From: an uncultured archaeon
GTDB taxonomy: Archaea > Nanobdellota > Nanobdellia > Pacearchaeales > GW2011-AR1
Assembly (NCBI GenBank): GCA_903831045.1
Contig: CAIKWG010000001.1
Span: forward strand, 1-32,669
Length of the DNA stretch: 32,669 bases
Reading direction: 5' to 3'
Part shown: in pieces, positions 19,826-32,668 of the stretch
Layout: each line of letters opens with the position of its first letter
Numbering within the stretch: the stretch's first letter is position 1
The notes under the pieces: generated by a model
What the model was told of the DNA's origin: nothing
What the model saw: only the letters and a program-made list of their open reading frames with translations
The model's database searches: none
Translations under genes and position numbers: made by a program

Positions 19826-20710
19826 ATGAACATAGAAAAAATAAAAAAACAGAAATCAATTCAAGAACTTTTAGAATTTGGAATAATAAATATTGATAAA
19901 TCTTCTGGACCTACTTCTTTTAATGTTTCGGAATTTGTAAAAAAAAGATTAAAGCTTAGGAAAACATCTCATCTAGGAACATTGGACCCTAAAGTTACTG
20001 GAGTTCTTCCAGTTGCATTAAATCGTGGATGTAAACTGACAGGATATTTCCTTGGGGAAGATAAAGAATATGTTGGAATCATGAGAATTCATGAAGAAGT
20101 TTCTCTAGAAAAGATAAATAAAGTGATTAAAGAAAAATTTCTTGGAACAATAAGTCAGCTTCCTCCAGTTAAGTCAAGAGTAAAAAGAGAAGAACGTGAA
20201 CGAGAAATTATTTCTTTTGTTTTACTAGAAAAAAATGGGAAGGATATTCTTTTTCAGGTTGCATGTCAAGGTGGAACCTATATTAGAAAGCTCGTTGATG
20301 ATTTAGGAAAAGAATTAGGAATTGGAGCTCACATGCTTGAGCTTAGAAGAGTTAGGGCTGGAATTTTCAAAGAGGATGATTCAATTTATCCAACGATTAA
20401 TCTATATGACTTTGAAAAAGCTGTAGAAGAATATGAAAAAGGTAATGAAGAATTATTAAGAAAAATAATTATTCCTGGAGAAATAGTTTCAGAAGTTTAT
20501 CCTCCAGTATTTATTAAAGCAGATAATATAAAAAATATTCTCACAGGGAAACCAATTGCTGTTCAAGATTTAGTTGATGAACAAAAATATGAGAAGGGAA
20601 AAATAATTTCTATTTTCTTAGATGCAAGATTTATTGGAATGTACAAAGTTACAAATGAGCTTGGAACTTTTGCAAGATCAGAATTTGTTATGCAACCTCT
20701 TAAGGGATAA
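19826..20710 (+). CDS. cbf5: archaeal Cbf5/TruB pseudouridine synthase with PUA domain
   Basis: 'GIINIDKSSGPTSFNVSEFVK', 'KTSHLGTLDPKVTGVLPVALNR', 'QLPPVKSRVKR', 'CQGGTYIRKLVDDLG'. Confidence 0.95.
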   Translation: MNIEKIKKQKSIQELLEFGIINIDKSSGPTSFNVSEFVKKRLKLRKTSHLGTLDPKVTGVLPVALNRGCKLTGYFLGEDKEYVGIMRIHEEVSLEKINKVIKEKFLGTISQLPPVKSRVKREEREREIISFVLLEKNGKDILFQVACQGGTYIRKLVDDLGKELGIGAHMLELRRVRAGIFKEDDSIYPTINLYDFEKAVEEYEKGNEELLRKIIIPGEIVSEVYPPVFIKADNIKNILTGKPIAVQDLVDEQKYEKGKIISIFLDARFIGMYKVTNELGTFARSEFVMQPLKG

Positions 20711-20767: not shown

Positions 20768-21844
20768 GTGGTCAATAAACTGGTGAACTCATTAAAACGA
20801 GGCTTATTGTACTTATCTGTTCCTCTAGCACTTGGTTTGGGAAGTTGTAGTGTTAATAAAAATTATATTGATGATGTTTATTACACTCCCGGAAAAGAAA
20901 TAATAATTTCTAATCCAGAACAGAACAAAGAAAAGTTAACAAATAAAAATTATTCTCTTAATCCAACTGCCGAGGAAGAGAATTGGAATTATTCTTCAAG
21001 ATTCAGAATGAGAAATGATTTTAATAGATTTGATTTGGGATGGTGGGATTCTGACGGAGATGGAATTGAAGATTGGGCAGATCCCTGGCCTCATGATTTT
21101 GGTCCTTACATTGACATGAATGGAAATGGAATTATTGATTTGAGAGATGTGCGGGTGTCTGGATTTGGAAATGATTTCTTGTATTATAATTTAGGAAATC
21201 ATTCATATTGGTATGATGATTGGGATTATGATTTTGGCTTTGGTTGGAATTCACCTTTCTATCACAATTATTATTGGGGCTCTCCTTTTTATCACAATTA
21301 TGGATATTCTCCTTGGGGAGGTTCTAATAACTGGGGCCATTGGGATAATTGGAATCACTGGAACAATGATTGGGGTGGCAGGCAAAAAGATAACGACGTT
21401 CTTTACGGACATAGAAATACTCCTATAACCGACGGCCCAGCAGAAAGAATTTATAATCGTAGTTCTAACGGAGATTTAATCAAAAATGATAATTCACGAA
21501 CAACTTCCACTGGTAGCTATGTTAGACCGCAAACTTCTAGTGCCACAAGAATATTTTCTCCTTCGAACAATACAATAAATTCTAGTGAAAGAACAACAAC
21601 TCAATATCGTTCAGCAACTCCAACAAGAACAAATAATTCTTCAAACTCTGGAGCTGTAAGAACTTACACGCCTCCCCAAAGAAGTTCGTCATCTTCTAAT
21701 ACCACTCAAAGGTCGACTTCTAGTTATTCCTCCGGTTCTGGTGCTACAAGATCTGGATCCTATTCTGGTTCTTCTTCTGGAGCAACAAGGTCGGGTTCTT
21801 CAACTTCTAGCTCTTCCGGTGCATCTAGAACAACCAAAAGATAG
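20768..21844 (+). CDS. predicted lipoprotein, Trp/Tyr/Asn-rich with Ser/Thr-rich tail; GTG start
   Basis: Signal peptide and lipobox 'LALGLGSC'; 'DDVYYTPG'; 'DSDGDGIEDW'; aromatic YHNYYWGSPFYHNYGYSPWG segment; low-complexity S/T/R tail. Confidence 0.8.
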   Translation: MVNKLVNSLKRGLLYLSVPLALGLGSCSVNKNYIDDVYYTPGKEIIISNPEQNKEKLTNKNYSLNPTAEEENWNYSSRFRMRNDFNRFDLGWWDSDGDGIEDWADPWPHDFGPYIDMNGNGIIDLRDVRVSGFGNDFLYYNLGNHSYWYDDWDYDFGFGWNSPFYHNYYWGSPFYHNYGYSPWGGSNNWGHWDNWNHWNNDWGGRQKDNDVLYGHRNTPITDGPAERIYNRSSNGDLIKNDNSRTTSTGSYVRPQTSSATRIFSPSNNTINSSERTTTQYRSATPTRTNNSSNSGAVRTYTPPQRSSSSSNTTQRSTSSYSSGSGATRSGSYSGSSSGATRSGSSTSSSSGASRTTKR

Positions 21845-21874: not shown

Positions 21875-22459
21875 ATGAAACATTTAATCTATTTTTCATC
21901 CAGTGCAGCAACAAGTGGGAAAGCTTTATCTGGAGGAGACCTAATGGGAGCAGGAAGAATGGACATAGCAATTCATTCATTTATTCAGGGAGTTTTTTTA
22001 TCCCATGGATTCAGAAAAGATGTGACATTTCATTTTATTTTCTATGGAATGCCTGATCCTCCAAAGCACATTCAAATAACCGTAGGAGAAGGATTGGACA
22101 TTTCAAAAAAAGATATAGGGAATTTAATTAAAAAAATTTTATACAAATTTAAACAAGGAGAAAATACAGAGGTTTTTCCAGGATGTTTTGTTGAAAAAAA
22201 GAGTCTACTTAATGTTATACAAGAACTTTTAGATAAAGACATTGAAGTTTTCATCCTAGATCAGGATGGTAAATCAATTAGAGAAGTGGAAATTCCCAAA
22301 GAGTGTGCTTTTCTTTTAGGCGACCATGAAGGATTTCCAAAAAAAGAACTTAAGAGATTAAAGGATAATCTAACAACAGTTTCAGTTGGTCCTCACATGT
22401 ATTTTGCTTCTCAAACAGTTGCAGTTGTTAATAATGAATTAGATTATAGAGGCATTTGA
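21875..22459 (+). CDS. trmY: tRNA (pseudouridine(54)-N1)-methyltransferase TrmY
   Basis: 'LSGGDLMGAGRMDIAIHSFIQGVFLSHGFRKDVTFHFIFYG' and 'FLLGDHEGFPKKE' SPOUT signature. Confidence 0.93.
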   Translation: MKHLIYFSSSAATSGKALSGGDLMGAGRMDIAIHSFIQGVFLSHGFRKDVTFHFIFYGMPDPPKHIQITVGEGLDISKKDIGNLIKKILYKFKQGENTEVFPGCFVEKKSLLNVIQELLDKDIEVFILDQDGKSIREVEIPKECAFLLGDHEGFPKKELKRLKDNLTTVSVGPHMYFASQTVAVVNNELDYRGI

Positions 22460-28542: not shown

Positions 28543-30153
28543 TTAGGGCATCTTTGGGTTTACAGGAGGCATTGGAGGCAAACCTTTCCCCTTGGATTCT
28601 TTTTCTAAATCAACTTTTTTCTTTTTTGTTCCTTTATATTTTTTAAGGAAGAACCAAGTAAATATCAATACAATAATAATAATCAAAACCCATCCAACTA
28701 TTTTTTTAGACTTATTTGAAGCCTTATCAATGCATTTTCCCAAACAACATTCAGCTCCATCTGATATTTGTTTTTCTCCACTGCAAGTTTGGCTTGCTTG
28801 AACACATATTGTCCCACTAAGCTCTGCACATGTTTTTACTTCTCCAGTTTCATTGTCAATAATAATTATGTCGTCTTCATTTATGCATTTTTCATTTATA
28901 CACAATCTTCCGTCTCCACATTCGCTATCTTTTTCACAGATAATATTGCTCCAATTAGTTTTACAGCTGTTATTTACACAAATTCTTCCATCAGAACATT
29001 CTTCATCAATAATACAACTAAAATTGCTTGAATTTTCTATGCACAATCCATCTCTACAAACTGTTCCATTAGCACAATCTGCATCCCAACTACAATTAAC
29101 AATTAATACACATTTATTTGCTAGACAAAGTCTGCCTTCTTCACAATTATCATTTGTTGTACAATTTTTATCCGTTGAATTAAGAATACATTCATTGCCT
29201 ACACAAATATTTCCCACTTCACAATCTTCGTCAATAATACAACTAAAATTGGTTGAATTTTCTATGCACAATCCATCGCTGCAAATTGTTCCATTGGTAC
29301 AATTAGAGTCTACTGTACAATTAGGCAAAGTTGAATTAAGAACACATTTCTGATTGGTGCAAATTTTTCCATCAATACAATCTGAACTAATGGAACACCA
29401 ACTATTGTTAATGACACAAACTCCTGAAGAGCACATCTTTCCTACCATGCAATCCAAATCACTCGCACATGCAGGAGCAGTTATATTATAAACAACGCAA
29501 ATTCCATTGTTGCATACGTTTCCTGTTGCACAATCTTCATCCATAGCACACTCAGGAGCAATAACTGGGCTTTCCACAGTTAAATCATAGCTCTGATTAG
29601 CGCTATTAAAATTAATTATTCTAATCCCGCTTCCAACATCGAGTGATAAATCCATAATTTTTCCAGATATCATGCTATAGGTTGTAGTTGTTCCGTTATC
29701 AACGCTCAAACTTATTGTCTTACTTTGTAAATTTTGAACTCTTACCGAGAAAGCAACTTCGGTCTTAACAACCCCTGGAGTTAAAGAGAAGTCAGCTTTA
29801 TTATTGAGAATGGTAAAATTTGCAATTATCGGAGTATTTTTGACAATCTCTCCATCCATGTAATAAACATTTTTTATTTGTAGAGAATAATTGTCTGCAC
29901 TTTTTCCAGTTGTAACAGCATAAATATAATAGTCTTCTCCAATTTTTTGAATATCATAATCTGAAAATGAAGTTGGTAAATATCTTCTGTAAAAACTTAT
30001 ATCTGACTTTTGCACATTGTCTAAAAAATTACCAGAAACTTTTACTAAAAGGGTTTCTCCAATATTAATTTTATCTTTAATCTGGACATTCACTGCAGAA
30101 ACAACTGATAGAAAGAATATCGCTGTTAAAAAGAATAGAAAATATTTTCTCAT
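28543..30153 (-). CDS. Cys-rich repeat surface protein (nine CxxDxxCxxGxxCxxxxC modules), C-terminal TM
   Basis: Signal peptide 'MRKYFLFFLTAIFFLSVVSA'; nine modules such as 'NCTVDSNCTNGTICSDGLCIEN'; TM 'IVGWVLIIIIVLIFTWFFLKKYKG'. Confidence 0.85.
   Translation of the reverse strand: MRKYFLFFLTAIFFLSVVSAVNVQIKDKINIGETLLVKVSGNFLDNVQKSDISFYRRYLPTSFSDYDIQKIGEDYYIYAVTTGKSADNYSLQIKNVYYMDGEIVKNTPIIANFTILNNKADFSLTPGVVKTEVAFSVRVQNLQSKTISLSVDNGTTTTYSMISGKIMDLSLDVGSGIRIINFNSANQSYDLTVESPVIAPECAMDEDCATGNVCNNGICVVYNITAPACASDLDCMVGKMCSSGVCVINNSWCSISSDCIDGKICTNQKCVLNSTLPNCTVDSNCTNGTICSDGLCIENSTNFSCIIDEDCEVGNICVGNECILNSTDKNCTTNDNCEEGRLCLANKCVLIVNCSWDADCANGTVCRDGLCIENSSNFSCIIDEECSDGRICVNNSCKTNWSNIICEKDSECGDGRLCINEKCINEDDIIIIDNETGEVKTCAELSGTICVQASQTCSGEKQISDGAECCLGKCIDKASNKSKKIVGWVLIIIIVLIFTWFFLKKYKGTKKKKVDLEKESKGKGLPPMPPVNPKMP
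29001..29304 (-). repeat. near-identical intragenic DNA repeat in Cys-rich gene (about 29001-29084 and 29226-29304)
   Basis: 'cttc[a/g]tcaataatacaactaaaattg[c/g]ttgaattttctatgcacaatccatc[t/g]ct' occurs twice, offset 225 bp (75 codons, two protein modules). Confidence 0.7.
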
Positions 30154-30154
30154 C

Positions 30155-32668
30155 TTACTTGCCCATTTCTTTTAATTTTTTGAGCACTTCATCCAATTCT
30201 GCTTTTGATTTTGGAACAGGTTTCTTAATTGATTGAGGTACCGGTCTTCTAATTTGTTCAGCTGACCTTATTGGTGCTCTCTGTGGAGGAGGTAAAACCT
30301 TTCTTTCAGAATAACTTCTCATAGGTGTTCTTGGATAGGCTTGAGGATGACTAATCGGAGAACCAGCCATTACTGGATGCATAGCTCCAGGTGGGCCCAT
30401 TGGTCCTTTTTTCTTCTTTCCAAATTTAGTACTTAATCTTAAAATGAATGCACTTATTTTTTCTCTAAATACGATTCCCAGAACAACTAATACAATTGCT
30501 CCTAATAATACCCAAAGCCAAACTTTAGAAGCAGGTGTTTTATCCTTTATGCAACAAATATCCAAACTGCTTGTACATTCATATCCATTAACATCTTCAG
30601 AATAACCTGTTTCACAACTTGATGCACATAATCCATCTACACTCTCACAGGAAGCTGTAGATCCAGAACTTACACAAATCTTATTCTTACAAATCTTTCC
30701 TCCAGTACAATCACCATCTTTAGTACATGAATTATTTATTACAGTTTTAGCAGTACAATTTCCAGTTACACAACAGGTCTGACCTGTGAGTAAACCATCT
30801 GTAGCCTTAGGAGTTCCAGAACAATATTGGCTAGATGTACAAACCTTTCCATTCAAGCTAGCACAGGTTTGATTTAATTTTGTTTGATTACAACATTTTA
30901 ATGTTCCTGTACAATCATATTGAGATAAAATTTGACCAGTACAACTTGTTCCAATCATACAAAAGAATCCTTCAGTCGCACAATCTTCATCATCAACTAT
31001 GCATTTTTTATTCAAACAGGTTTGTCCTGTAGGACAGTCAAAAGAAGTTGTACAATTAGTTAAAATGCTTCCGTTAACACATGCACCATTCTTACAAATT
31101 TTTCCTCCAGTACAATTTAGGTTAGAAGTACATTTTACTGTATCATTAACGCACACTTTGTTTAAACAAATTTTTCCAACAGGGCAATGCGAATCTAAAA
31201 GACAAGTTACATTAGTAGTACATATACCATTTCTACAAACCTTTCCAGTTGGGCACTGTGAATCAAGAGTACAATTTCCACTTCCTATAGTACAATTTCC
31301 ATTCAGACAAATTTGTTGATATGGACAATCCAAGTCTTTAAAGCAAGTTGTATTCTTTACACAATATCCTCCTCTACAAAGTTTTCCATCGCTGCAATTT
31401 TCATCAGAGGTACAATTAACTTTATTTTCACACCAATTATTAATACATTCTTTTCCAACAGGACATTCTGCATCTGTTGCACAGGTTAGATTAGTTATAC
31501 ATACTCTATCTCTACAAATCTTTCCTCTTGCACAATCTGTGTCTTTGCTACATAGAGGTTTAACATTCTGTGGCCAAACAGTATAAAGAACCCAGGAAGT
31601 ATCTCTAATCAAATCGTCTGCATTTCCTCCCCAACATCCTTCGGTAGTTTGAGTCTTAAATAGCCATTCCTTTCCTTTAGTTTTTTCTGCTAGAGTTGTA
31701 GAATAAAAAGGCCAAAGAGCTAAACCAGTGTCAAAATATCTGTCTCCAGAATTTGAATCCCAATAACCGTTGAAAACATTTTGATCAAAAAGAAGCTGAG
31801 TTTTATATTCCAATTCTCCAGTTATTAAGTACAAGAATACAGAAGGCATAAATTTTTTATTTTCTAATCTATCCCATCCATCAATTAGATAGGGTAAATA
31901 TTTTGATATACTTTGATTTCTATAATCCAGAACTGTTGCTGCCCATAGGCTTCCTTCATAATCACAAACACCATCTTTTCCAAAACAATAGGATTCTATT
32001 CTTTCAATAGTTCTTCCACCAGCTTTTGCAGATTGAGTTCCCTTGAGAACATTATATGGATTAAATTCATTTGTAGTAGTCTTTCTCTGGAAAATTAAAG
32101 TAGTAATAAATGCTTTATCACAGGATATTGCGAACGCCTTGTCGTAGCAACTTTCACTAATGCCTAACCAATAACCACTAAAACTAGGAGTTAAACACGA
32201 ACCAGCATTGCCAACAATTTTTTTATCCTCTCCAATATTTATTGAATATGTTTCACCAGTTTCATATTCTATTGAACAAGTTGTTGCATTATCACTATCA
32301 ATTTCCATATACCAAATTAAATTTGTGGGGGTAATTGTTTGACTCAATAACCAAGTTTCAGAATCACTAGTATCTTCTTTTGTTCTAGCATTTGCGAGAA
32401 CAGCCTGAGCAGTAGTTTTTAGATTACAACTTCCCGCTGGCCAACAGGCAACATCGTCTTTAAATTCATCAATTTTTGCTGAACAATTTCCAGTTGCAAG
32501 TTTAACAGCTATTGCTTGTTCCAAAGATAATTGGGAGCAATCTGTATTAGCCAACTGATTTTCTAAACAAGTATAAGCCTGAGCAACATTTGTTTTTTCT
32601 TCAGCAGGAGTGAATGCAGAAGTAAGTAAAACACTATTTATTAATATAATAAAAATAAAAATTCCCAA
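30155..32668 (-). CDS. large Cys-rich repeat surface protein with N-terminal alpha-toroid (terpene-cyclase-like repeat) region and C-terminal TM plus Pro-rich tail; 5' end at window edge
   Basis: 'CWPAGSCNLKTTAQAVLANARTKEDTSDSETWLLSQ' and 'FDTGLALWPFYSTTLAEKTKGKEWLFKTQTTEGCWGG'; nine Cys modules; TM 'VWLWVLLGAIVLVVLGIVF'. The TTG start at 32668 may not be the true start. Confidence 0.8.
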   Translation of the reverse strand: MGIFIFIILINSVLLTSAFTPAEEKTNVAQAYTCLENQLANTDCSQLSLEQAIAVKLATGNCSAKIDEFKDDVACWPAGSCNLKTTAQAVLANARTKEDTSDSETWLLSQTITPTNLIWYMEIDSDNATTCSIEYETGETYSINIGEDKKIVGNAGSCLTPSFSGYWLGISESCYDKAFAISCDKAFITTLIFQRKTTTNEFNPYNVLKGTQSAKAGGRTIERIESYCFGKDGVCDYEGSLWAATVLDYRNQSISKYLPYLIDGWDRLENKKFMPSVFLYLITGELEYKTQLLFDQNVFNGYWDSNSGDRYFDTGLALWPFYSTTLAEKTKGKEWLFKTQTTEGCWGGNADDLIRDTSWVLYTVWPQNVKPLCSKDTDCARGKICRDRVCITNLTCATDAECPVGKECINNWCENKVNCTSDENCSDGKLCRGGYCVKNTTCFKDLDCPYQQICLNGNCTIGSGNCTLDSQCPTGKVCRNGICTTNVTCLLDSHCPVGKICLNKVCVNDTVKCTSNLNCTGGKICKNGACVNGSILTNCTTSFDCPTGQTCLNKKCIVDDEDCATEGFFCMIGTSCTGQILSQYDCTGTLKCCNQTKLNQTCASLNGKVCTSSQYCSGTPKATDGLLTGQTCCVTGNCTAKTVINNSCTKDGDCTGGKICKNKICVSSGSTASCESVDGLCASSCETGYSEDVNGYECTSSLDICCIKDKTPASKVWLWVLLGAIVLVVLGIVFREKISAFILRLSTKFGKKKKGPMGPPGAMHPVMAGSPISHPQAYPRTPMRSYSERKVLPPPQRAPIRSAEQIRRPVPQSIKKPVPKSKAELDEVLKKLKEMGK

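Follow-up and report, generated by a model that had tools for sequence, protein, structure and literature searches.

A lipoprotein gene of probable Bacteroidota origin inherited between cbf5 and trmY in one archaeal genus

Introduction

How did a gene whose product resembles Bacteroidota lipoproteins come to lie between the archaeal genes cbf5 and trmY? The question is raised by a window of DNA from an uncultured archaeon (the whole stretch analysed, 32,669 nucleotides), for which an earlier note, made from the sequence alone, had proposed the inter-domain transfer of a surface protein. DPANN archaea, to which this organism probably belongs judging by its genome size and gene content, are already known to have received genes from bacteria. 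In a 2021 survey, just a few DPANN families without a known function were detected in bacteria (PMC8204110).

Here, we present evidence that a surface lipoprotein gene passed from Bacteroidota, taken in the broad, GTDB sense, to the ancestor of the genus and was then inherited between cbf5 and trmY while diverging very fast, a reading to which we assign a probability of about 0.7. The locus offers a traceable surface-protein case: the insertion site is fixed, the hosts all belong to one genus, and the bacterial relatives can be recognised and share a conserved gene neighbourhood. It opens to testing the question of archaeal lipidation of such a bacterial-type protein when Lgt and LspA are absent, and it draws attention to uncharacterised lipoproteins of Bacteroidota that are associated with OmpP1/FadL-like barrels.

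Results

Organization of the lipoprotein gene

All of the features that the earlier note had read from the open reading frame, namely the lipobox LGLGSC, DDVYYTPG, a TSP3-like segment, an aromatic core, and an S/T/R-rich tail, are present in it (Table 1), and the flanking genes were confirmed by profile matches as Cbf5 and TrmY. The TSP3-like part of the protein, which reads DSDGDGIEDWADPWPHDFGPYIDMNGNGIIDL, carries a net charge of -9. No Pfam or NCBIfam model matched the window protein. The gene is present in a single copy in the 821-kb genome, and its reading frame is among the very few with a lipobox in approximately 600 kb of that genome. Codon composition, which the earlier note had suggested as a check against misassembly, is native when compared with the genome (z = -0.4; GC3 z = +0.85). 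Across the window genome, Cys at the lipobox position showed no enrichment over other residues.

Table 1. Features of the lipoprotein gene and its flanks in the window
Feature	Position	Strand	Basis
Cbf5, upstream syntenic anchor	19826..20710	+	NF003280, E 1e-80
Lipoprotein gene, GTG start, 358 aa	20768..21844	+	ORF reading; homologues at the equivalent locus in same-genus genomes
Sec-type signal peptide with lipobox LGLGSC	20768..20848	+	sequence; Cys kept in 8/8 genus members
Lipid-anchor Cys27 codon (predicted)	20846-20848	+	lipobox sequence
DDVYYTP motif (DDVYYTPG = residues 35-42)	20870..20890	+	signal-peptide proteins with motif and aromatic core all Bacteroidota
SSRFRM..FDLGWWDS stretch	20993..21052	+	co-linear with Bacteroidota ASRIRRF..FGYYD (alignment)
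Acidic TSP3-like Ca-loop segment DSDGDGI..DP.P...GPY.D.NGNGIID	21035..21175	+	common to G002 and G008, ~40% identity
Aromatic W/Y/N/G-rich core, 34% W+Y+F	21176..21403	+	composition; co-linear with Bacteroidota core
YGHRNTPITDGP junction motif	21404..21439	+	cf. YGHRNSGITDG in Bacteroidales L126, YGPRNSRG in others
S/T/R-rich basic tail, 46% S/T, net +13, ending TTKR	21440..21841	+	composition; shuffle comparison
TrmY, downstream syntenic anchor	21875..22459	+	PF04013, E 5e-37

The window genome encodes a second bacterial-looking lipoprotein (L292:12864-13583, on G000:C42), which is DUF5018-like (PF16410, E 4e-9, just below cut-off) and is encoded in an island close to a tyrosine-recombinase-like gene (1632-2471); the contig also carries archaeal ribosomal proteins. 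A 287-amino-acid lipobox protein of the same genome (L238:4930-5793) has no Pfam match over cut-off. Elsewhere in the window (28543-32668, minus strand), two adjoining genes encode proteins with Cys-rich repeats (C..D.DC..G..C....C) and a membrane segment at the C-terminus.

A syntenic lipoprotein family in one genus

In eight of the ten same-genus genomes that have the Cbf5-TrmY locus, the spacer encodes a lipoprotein, always from the same rapidly evolving family; this lipoprotein is absent from other genera. The remaining two genomes (G004 and G009) have kept Cbf5 and TrmY and lack the spacer lipoprotein, and one further genome of the genus (G001) gave no Cbf5 match. Direct matches to residues 91-179 of the window protein were found in two genomes of the genus, both of them between Cbf5 and TrmY, and five more relatives encode lipobox proteins of 122-156 amino acids in the spacer. 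These spacer proteins begin C-[YF]-[ST]; most contain a D.D.DG[IV]P[DN]IYD loop and most have an RNNxGxR-type motif at the end. The window protein has the position, the lipobox, and the common core of these genus-specific lipoproteins. A profile of the eight spacer lipoproteins, searched against 200 genomes of the order, recovered precisely those eight, with no other match below E 0.001. On sequence evidence, the spacer lipoproteins of the genus share a common ancestry.

In a tree of Cbf5 and TrmY the window genome and the rest of the genus form sister lineages (76/81), and support for the branch that ties it to the genus is modest. The presence and absence of the lipoprotein require two changes on this tree, a pattern that fits one gain and a later loss.

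The fragmented, 83% complete state of the genome assembly counts in favour of an artefact in which a Bacteroidota gene was joined to archaeal sequence during assembly or binning, but the syntenic homologues in seven other genomes, the intact flanks, and the native codon usage all speak against such an artefact. Spacer synteny together with ordinary codon usage makes misassembly very unlikely, and we regard the probability of an artefact as negligible.

A second small family, with an EF-hand-like loop (YLDRDGNGYLDPKDFEE) and mostly with a lipobox, was observed at L002:948-1307, L003:1963-2319, L005, and L010. It adjoins the spacer lipoprotein in four same-genus genomes, and in one genome (G002) these two proteins are the sole lipobox reading frames found in 418 kb. 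A third, tiny lipobox protein of 66-72 amino acids (C-LTPRII..YNP) lies directly after Cbf5 in two genomes of the genus (L007 and L010).

Resemblance to the DDVYYTP lipoproteins of Bacteroidota

A literature search found the DDVYYTP string in no paper. A DNA pattern for this motif, run over a collection of genome contigs, returned 97 stretches, 36 of which are signal-peptide proteins with an aromatic core; all 36 belong to Bacteroidota. Among 4237 archaeal ORFs the DDVYYTP profile matched the window protein alone (E 3.4e-6; next 1.9), and with DDVYYTP masked it no longer found the window protein in that set. Residues 1-70 score 27.8 bits against the Bacteroidota DDVYYTP profile, compared with at most 10.5 in approximately 1000 local shuffles. 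Three segments that lie outside the motif exceed shuffles of matching local composition, at approximately 1%, 1%, and 0.3%, the profile members having been picked by the motif; the score of the SSRFRM..FDLGWWDS stretch was reached by 6 to 8 of 1000 such shuffles and that of the S/T/R-rich tail by 2 to 3 of 1000. These segment scores provide supportive but modest backing for a link to Bacteroidota. A caveat to a Bacteroidota origin is that the window protein matches Bacteroidota mainly by its signal peptide and DDVYYTP, and composition-biased segments can converge.

The Bacteroidales DDVYYTP lipoproteins, which are unnamed and match no Pfam or NCBIfam model, are encoded between ProRS and an OmpP1/FadL-like barrel gene. 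In common with the window protein they have a lipobox signal peptide closely before DDVYYTP, an SRIRRF-type stretch, a W/Y/N/G core, a YGxRN junction, and an S/R-rich tail with a basic end. In contrast to them, the archaeal protein is shorter than most, contains the TSP3-like loop as an insert, and is encoded without an adjoining barrel gene. Neither a single-protein scan of the genome contig collection with the window protein nor a tblastn search of plasmids and phages yielded a confirmed relative, and a consensus sequence for the Bacteroidota family, used only as a lead, gave no match in plasmids.

DDVYYTP, SRFRM, and YGHRN are found in the window protein and not in its relatives, which share with it only the lipobox and the TSP3-like core. 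This distribution would be expected of a chimera formed in the window lineage by recombination between a resident genus lipoprotein bearing the TSP3-like loop and a later-acquired Bacteroidales DDVYYTP lipoprotein, which replaced the ends of the resident protein. However, the window genome is the earliest branch of the genus, so that an ancestral long form eroded elsewhere is an equally simple explanation, and the codon usage of the gene is uniform with that of the genome. We consider such a recombination unlikely, although credible.

A specific Bacteroidota source for the TSP3-like loop was considered and rejected: a genus profile (A1) searched against 396 Bacteroidota genomes matched for the most part proteins of outer-membrane type that carry TSP3, together with one SusD-like lipoprotein, and thus identifies no specific source for the loop in those genomes. 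A candidate relative of the loop, L077 (DADFDGITNIYDIP), was dropped because it looked like an L077-internal repeat.

GCYTV and GCYTQ profiles and the archaeal locus

A weak match of the window protein's tail in Bacteroidota (L155) is a short lipoprotein beginning GCYTV. The corresponding family, 14 members drawn from relatives in 245 genomes of one class of the phylum, is characterized by GCYTV, a YYxxPWW turn, RNNDGxR, and a basic end. Its profile ranks six spacer lipoproteins first to sixth among the 4237 archaeal ORFs (E 1.1e-8, 2.1e-8, 3e-7, 1.1e-5, 4.7e-5, and 3.2e-4; next 0.47), and the alignment of the two groups is visible by eye. With the signal peptide and CYT removed, spacer lipoproteins still top the search (1.2e-4 and 1.7e-3); in comparison with local shuffles, the signal-stripped protein of G003 beats 1000 of 1000 and that of G006 beats 999, and the result for G005 is not significant. 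Spacer lipoproteins also come first in a search with a profile built from the adjacent long GCYTQ lipoproteins (best 1.8e-5). In a blind search of the archaeal phylum (371 genomes) with the bacterial GCYTV alignment, the three best matches all fell at the Cbf5-TrmY locus, and the remaining matches were weak and mostly limited to the signal peptide.

The GCYTV/GCYTQ tandem lipoproteins and the other genus members are alike in the lipobox GCY[ST], a PWW-type aromatic turn, R-N-N-x-G-x-R, and a basic end; the archaeal forms differ in being shorter at the C-terminus and, in most cases, in having a TSP3-like loop. Neither the GCYTV nor the GCYTQ profile matched the window protein itself, whose tie to these families runs through its genus relatives. 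Profile-profile comparison of the DDVYYTP and GCYTV families aligned the signal peptide alone, and we therefore make no claim from sequence that the two bacterial families are one. Both the lipobox signal with its conserved Cys and the profile match of the genus lipoproteins to Bacteroidota are evident from the sequences.

Much of the window sequence is composition-biased, and bias-corrected scores are low for the core and tail, as they would be in an archaeal secreted low-complexity protein that had come to resemble Bacteroidota lipoproteins by convergence. This explanation is largely refuted by the profile searches, in which non-overlapping Bacteroidota profiles point to one locus out of 4237 ORFs and 371 genomes, even when the signal peptide is left out; the exact DDVYYTP stands directly behind the lipobox, as in Bacteroidota. 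Convergence is thus highly improbable.

The affinity to Bacteroidota suspected in the earlier note is upheld by the 36 DDVYYTP proteins and by the Bacteroidota lipoprotein profiles, whose best archaeal matches are the syntenic lipoproteins; best matches were not found throughout the archaea, and Bacteroidota homologues were not lacking. Of the proposed transfer, the Bacteroidota origin stands, whereas an isolated or recent gain by this organism does not, given a family that is present in eight of the ten genomes with the locus, syntenic, and native in its codons. The best reading is an older, genus-wide transfer that was kept vertically rather than a stray acquisition.

The bacterial genes adjoin an outer membrane barrel gene

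In 9 of 10 loci the Bacteroidales DDVYYTP gene and ProRS are divergently oriented, and a barrel gene follows the lipoprotein gene in all eight loci with a readable neighbour. For one such barrel, the match to PF03349 (OmpP1/FadL) falls slightly short of the curated cut-off (E 1.8e-6); searches of two others against Pfam gave no match. In the class bearing GCYTV, the gene order is long lipoprotein, short lipoprotein, barrel, and the barrel is present in 13 of 14 cases. Because the bacterial genes adjoin an OmpP1/FadL-like barrel, their product is probably an outer-membrane accessory lipoprotein, and the retention of one kind of partner by two lipoprotein types suggests an accessory role at the barrel. 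Inspection of the archaeal Cbf5-TrmY locus itself revealed no barrel gene, and a change of role is therefore probable. At L344-L362, in one class of the Bacteroidota phylum, uncharacterised lipoproteins in tandem (GCYTQ long, GCYTV short, some with CxxCH) lie upstream of an OmpP1/FadL-like barrel; the tandem lipoproteins tested have no Pfam or NCBIfam model.

Discussion

Under the preferred reading of a Bacteroidota origin, the lipoprotein gene would have entered the ancestor of the archaeal genus in one transfer, lodged between cbf5 and trmY, and been inherited there while diverging rapidly. The product would be exported by the Sec pathway, receive lipid on Cys27, and be displayed on the outside of the single membrane. 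Its mature chain would present an acidic loop of Ca-binding type close to the membrane, together with a sticky aromatic core and a basic tail rich in S/T/R. The signal peptide, the conservation of the Cys, and the composition argue for an exported, Cys-anchored protein. An AlphaFold2 model (mean pLDDT 46) contains one helix, at residues 2-25 of the signal, and a short stretch above 70 in the TSP3-like loop, with values below 50 otherwise, including the aromatic core; the underlying alignment of eight rows is shallow, which makes the low pLDDT a weak sign of disorder. The product is probably tethered to the membrane and exposed at the surface, with most of its chain disordered. As its most likely role we tentatively predict a membrane-tethered surface coat or an adhesive brush at cell contacts.

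Lgt (PF01790) and LspA (PF01252) were above cut-off in none of the 32 genomes of the family, including that of the window (assembly 83% complete), and lipidation is therefore not assured; both are strong in most genomes from other families of the order. The lipobox Cys is nonetheless kept in all eight spacer lipoproteins. Haloarchaeal lipobox proteins, whose biogenesis involves AliA/AliB and proceeds without Lgt or LspA (review PMC12186497), are by description similar, being archaeal lipobox proteins made without these two enzymes. It is conceivable, if rather doubtful, that archaea of a lineage lacking Lgt and LspA retain a lipoprotein family of Bacteroidota origin, display its members with a lipid anchor attached by another route, and use them as a brush at the surface in contacts with a partner cell.

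According to a 2025 review, no bacterial-type Lgt or LspA has been identified in archaea. We observed strong-scoring bacterial-type Lgt/LspA genes in most sampled genomes of the order's other families (L216-L223), examples being G041:C39:8718-9856, G043:C38:25241-26320, and G044:C1:183231-183959. The lipobox Cys is without enrichment in G044. Lgt and LspA lie close together in G041 and G043, and at L217 Lgt is found near an archaeal aIF2-gamma-like gene.
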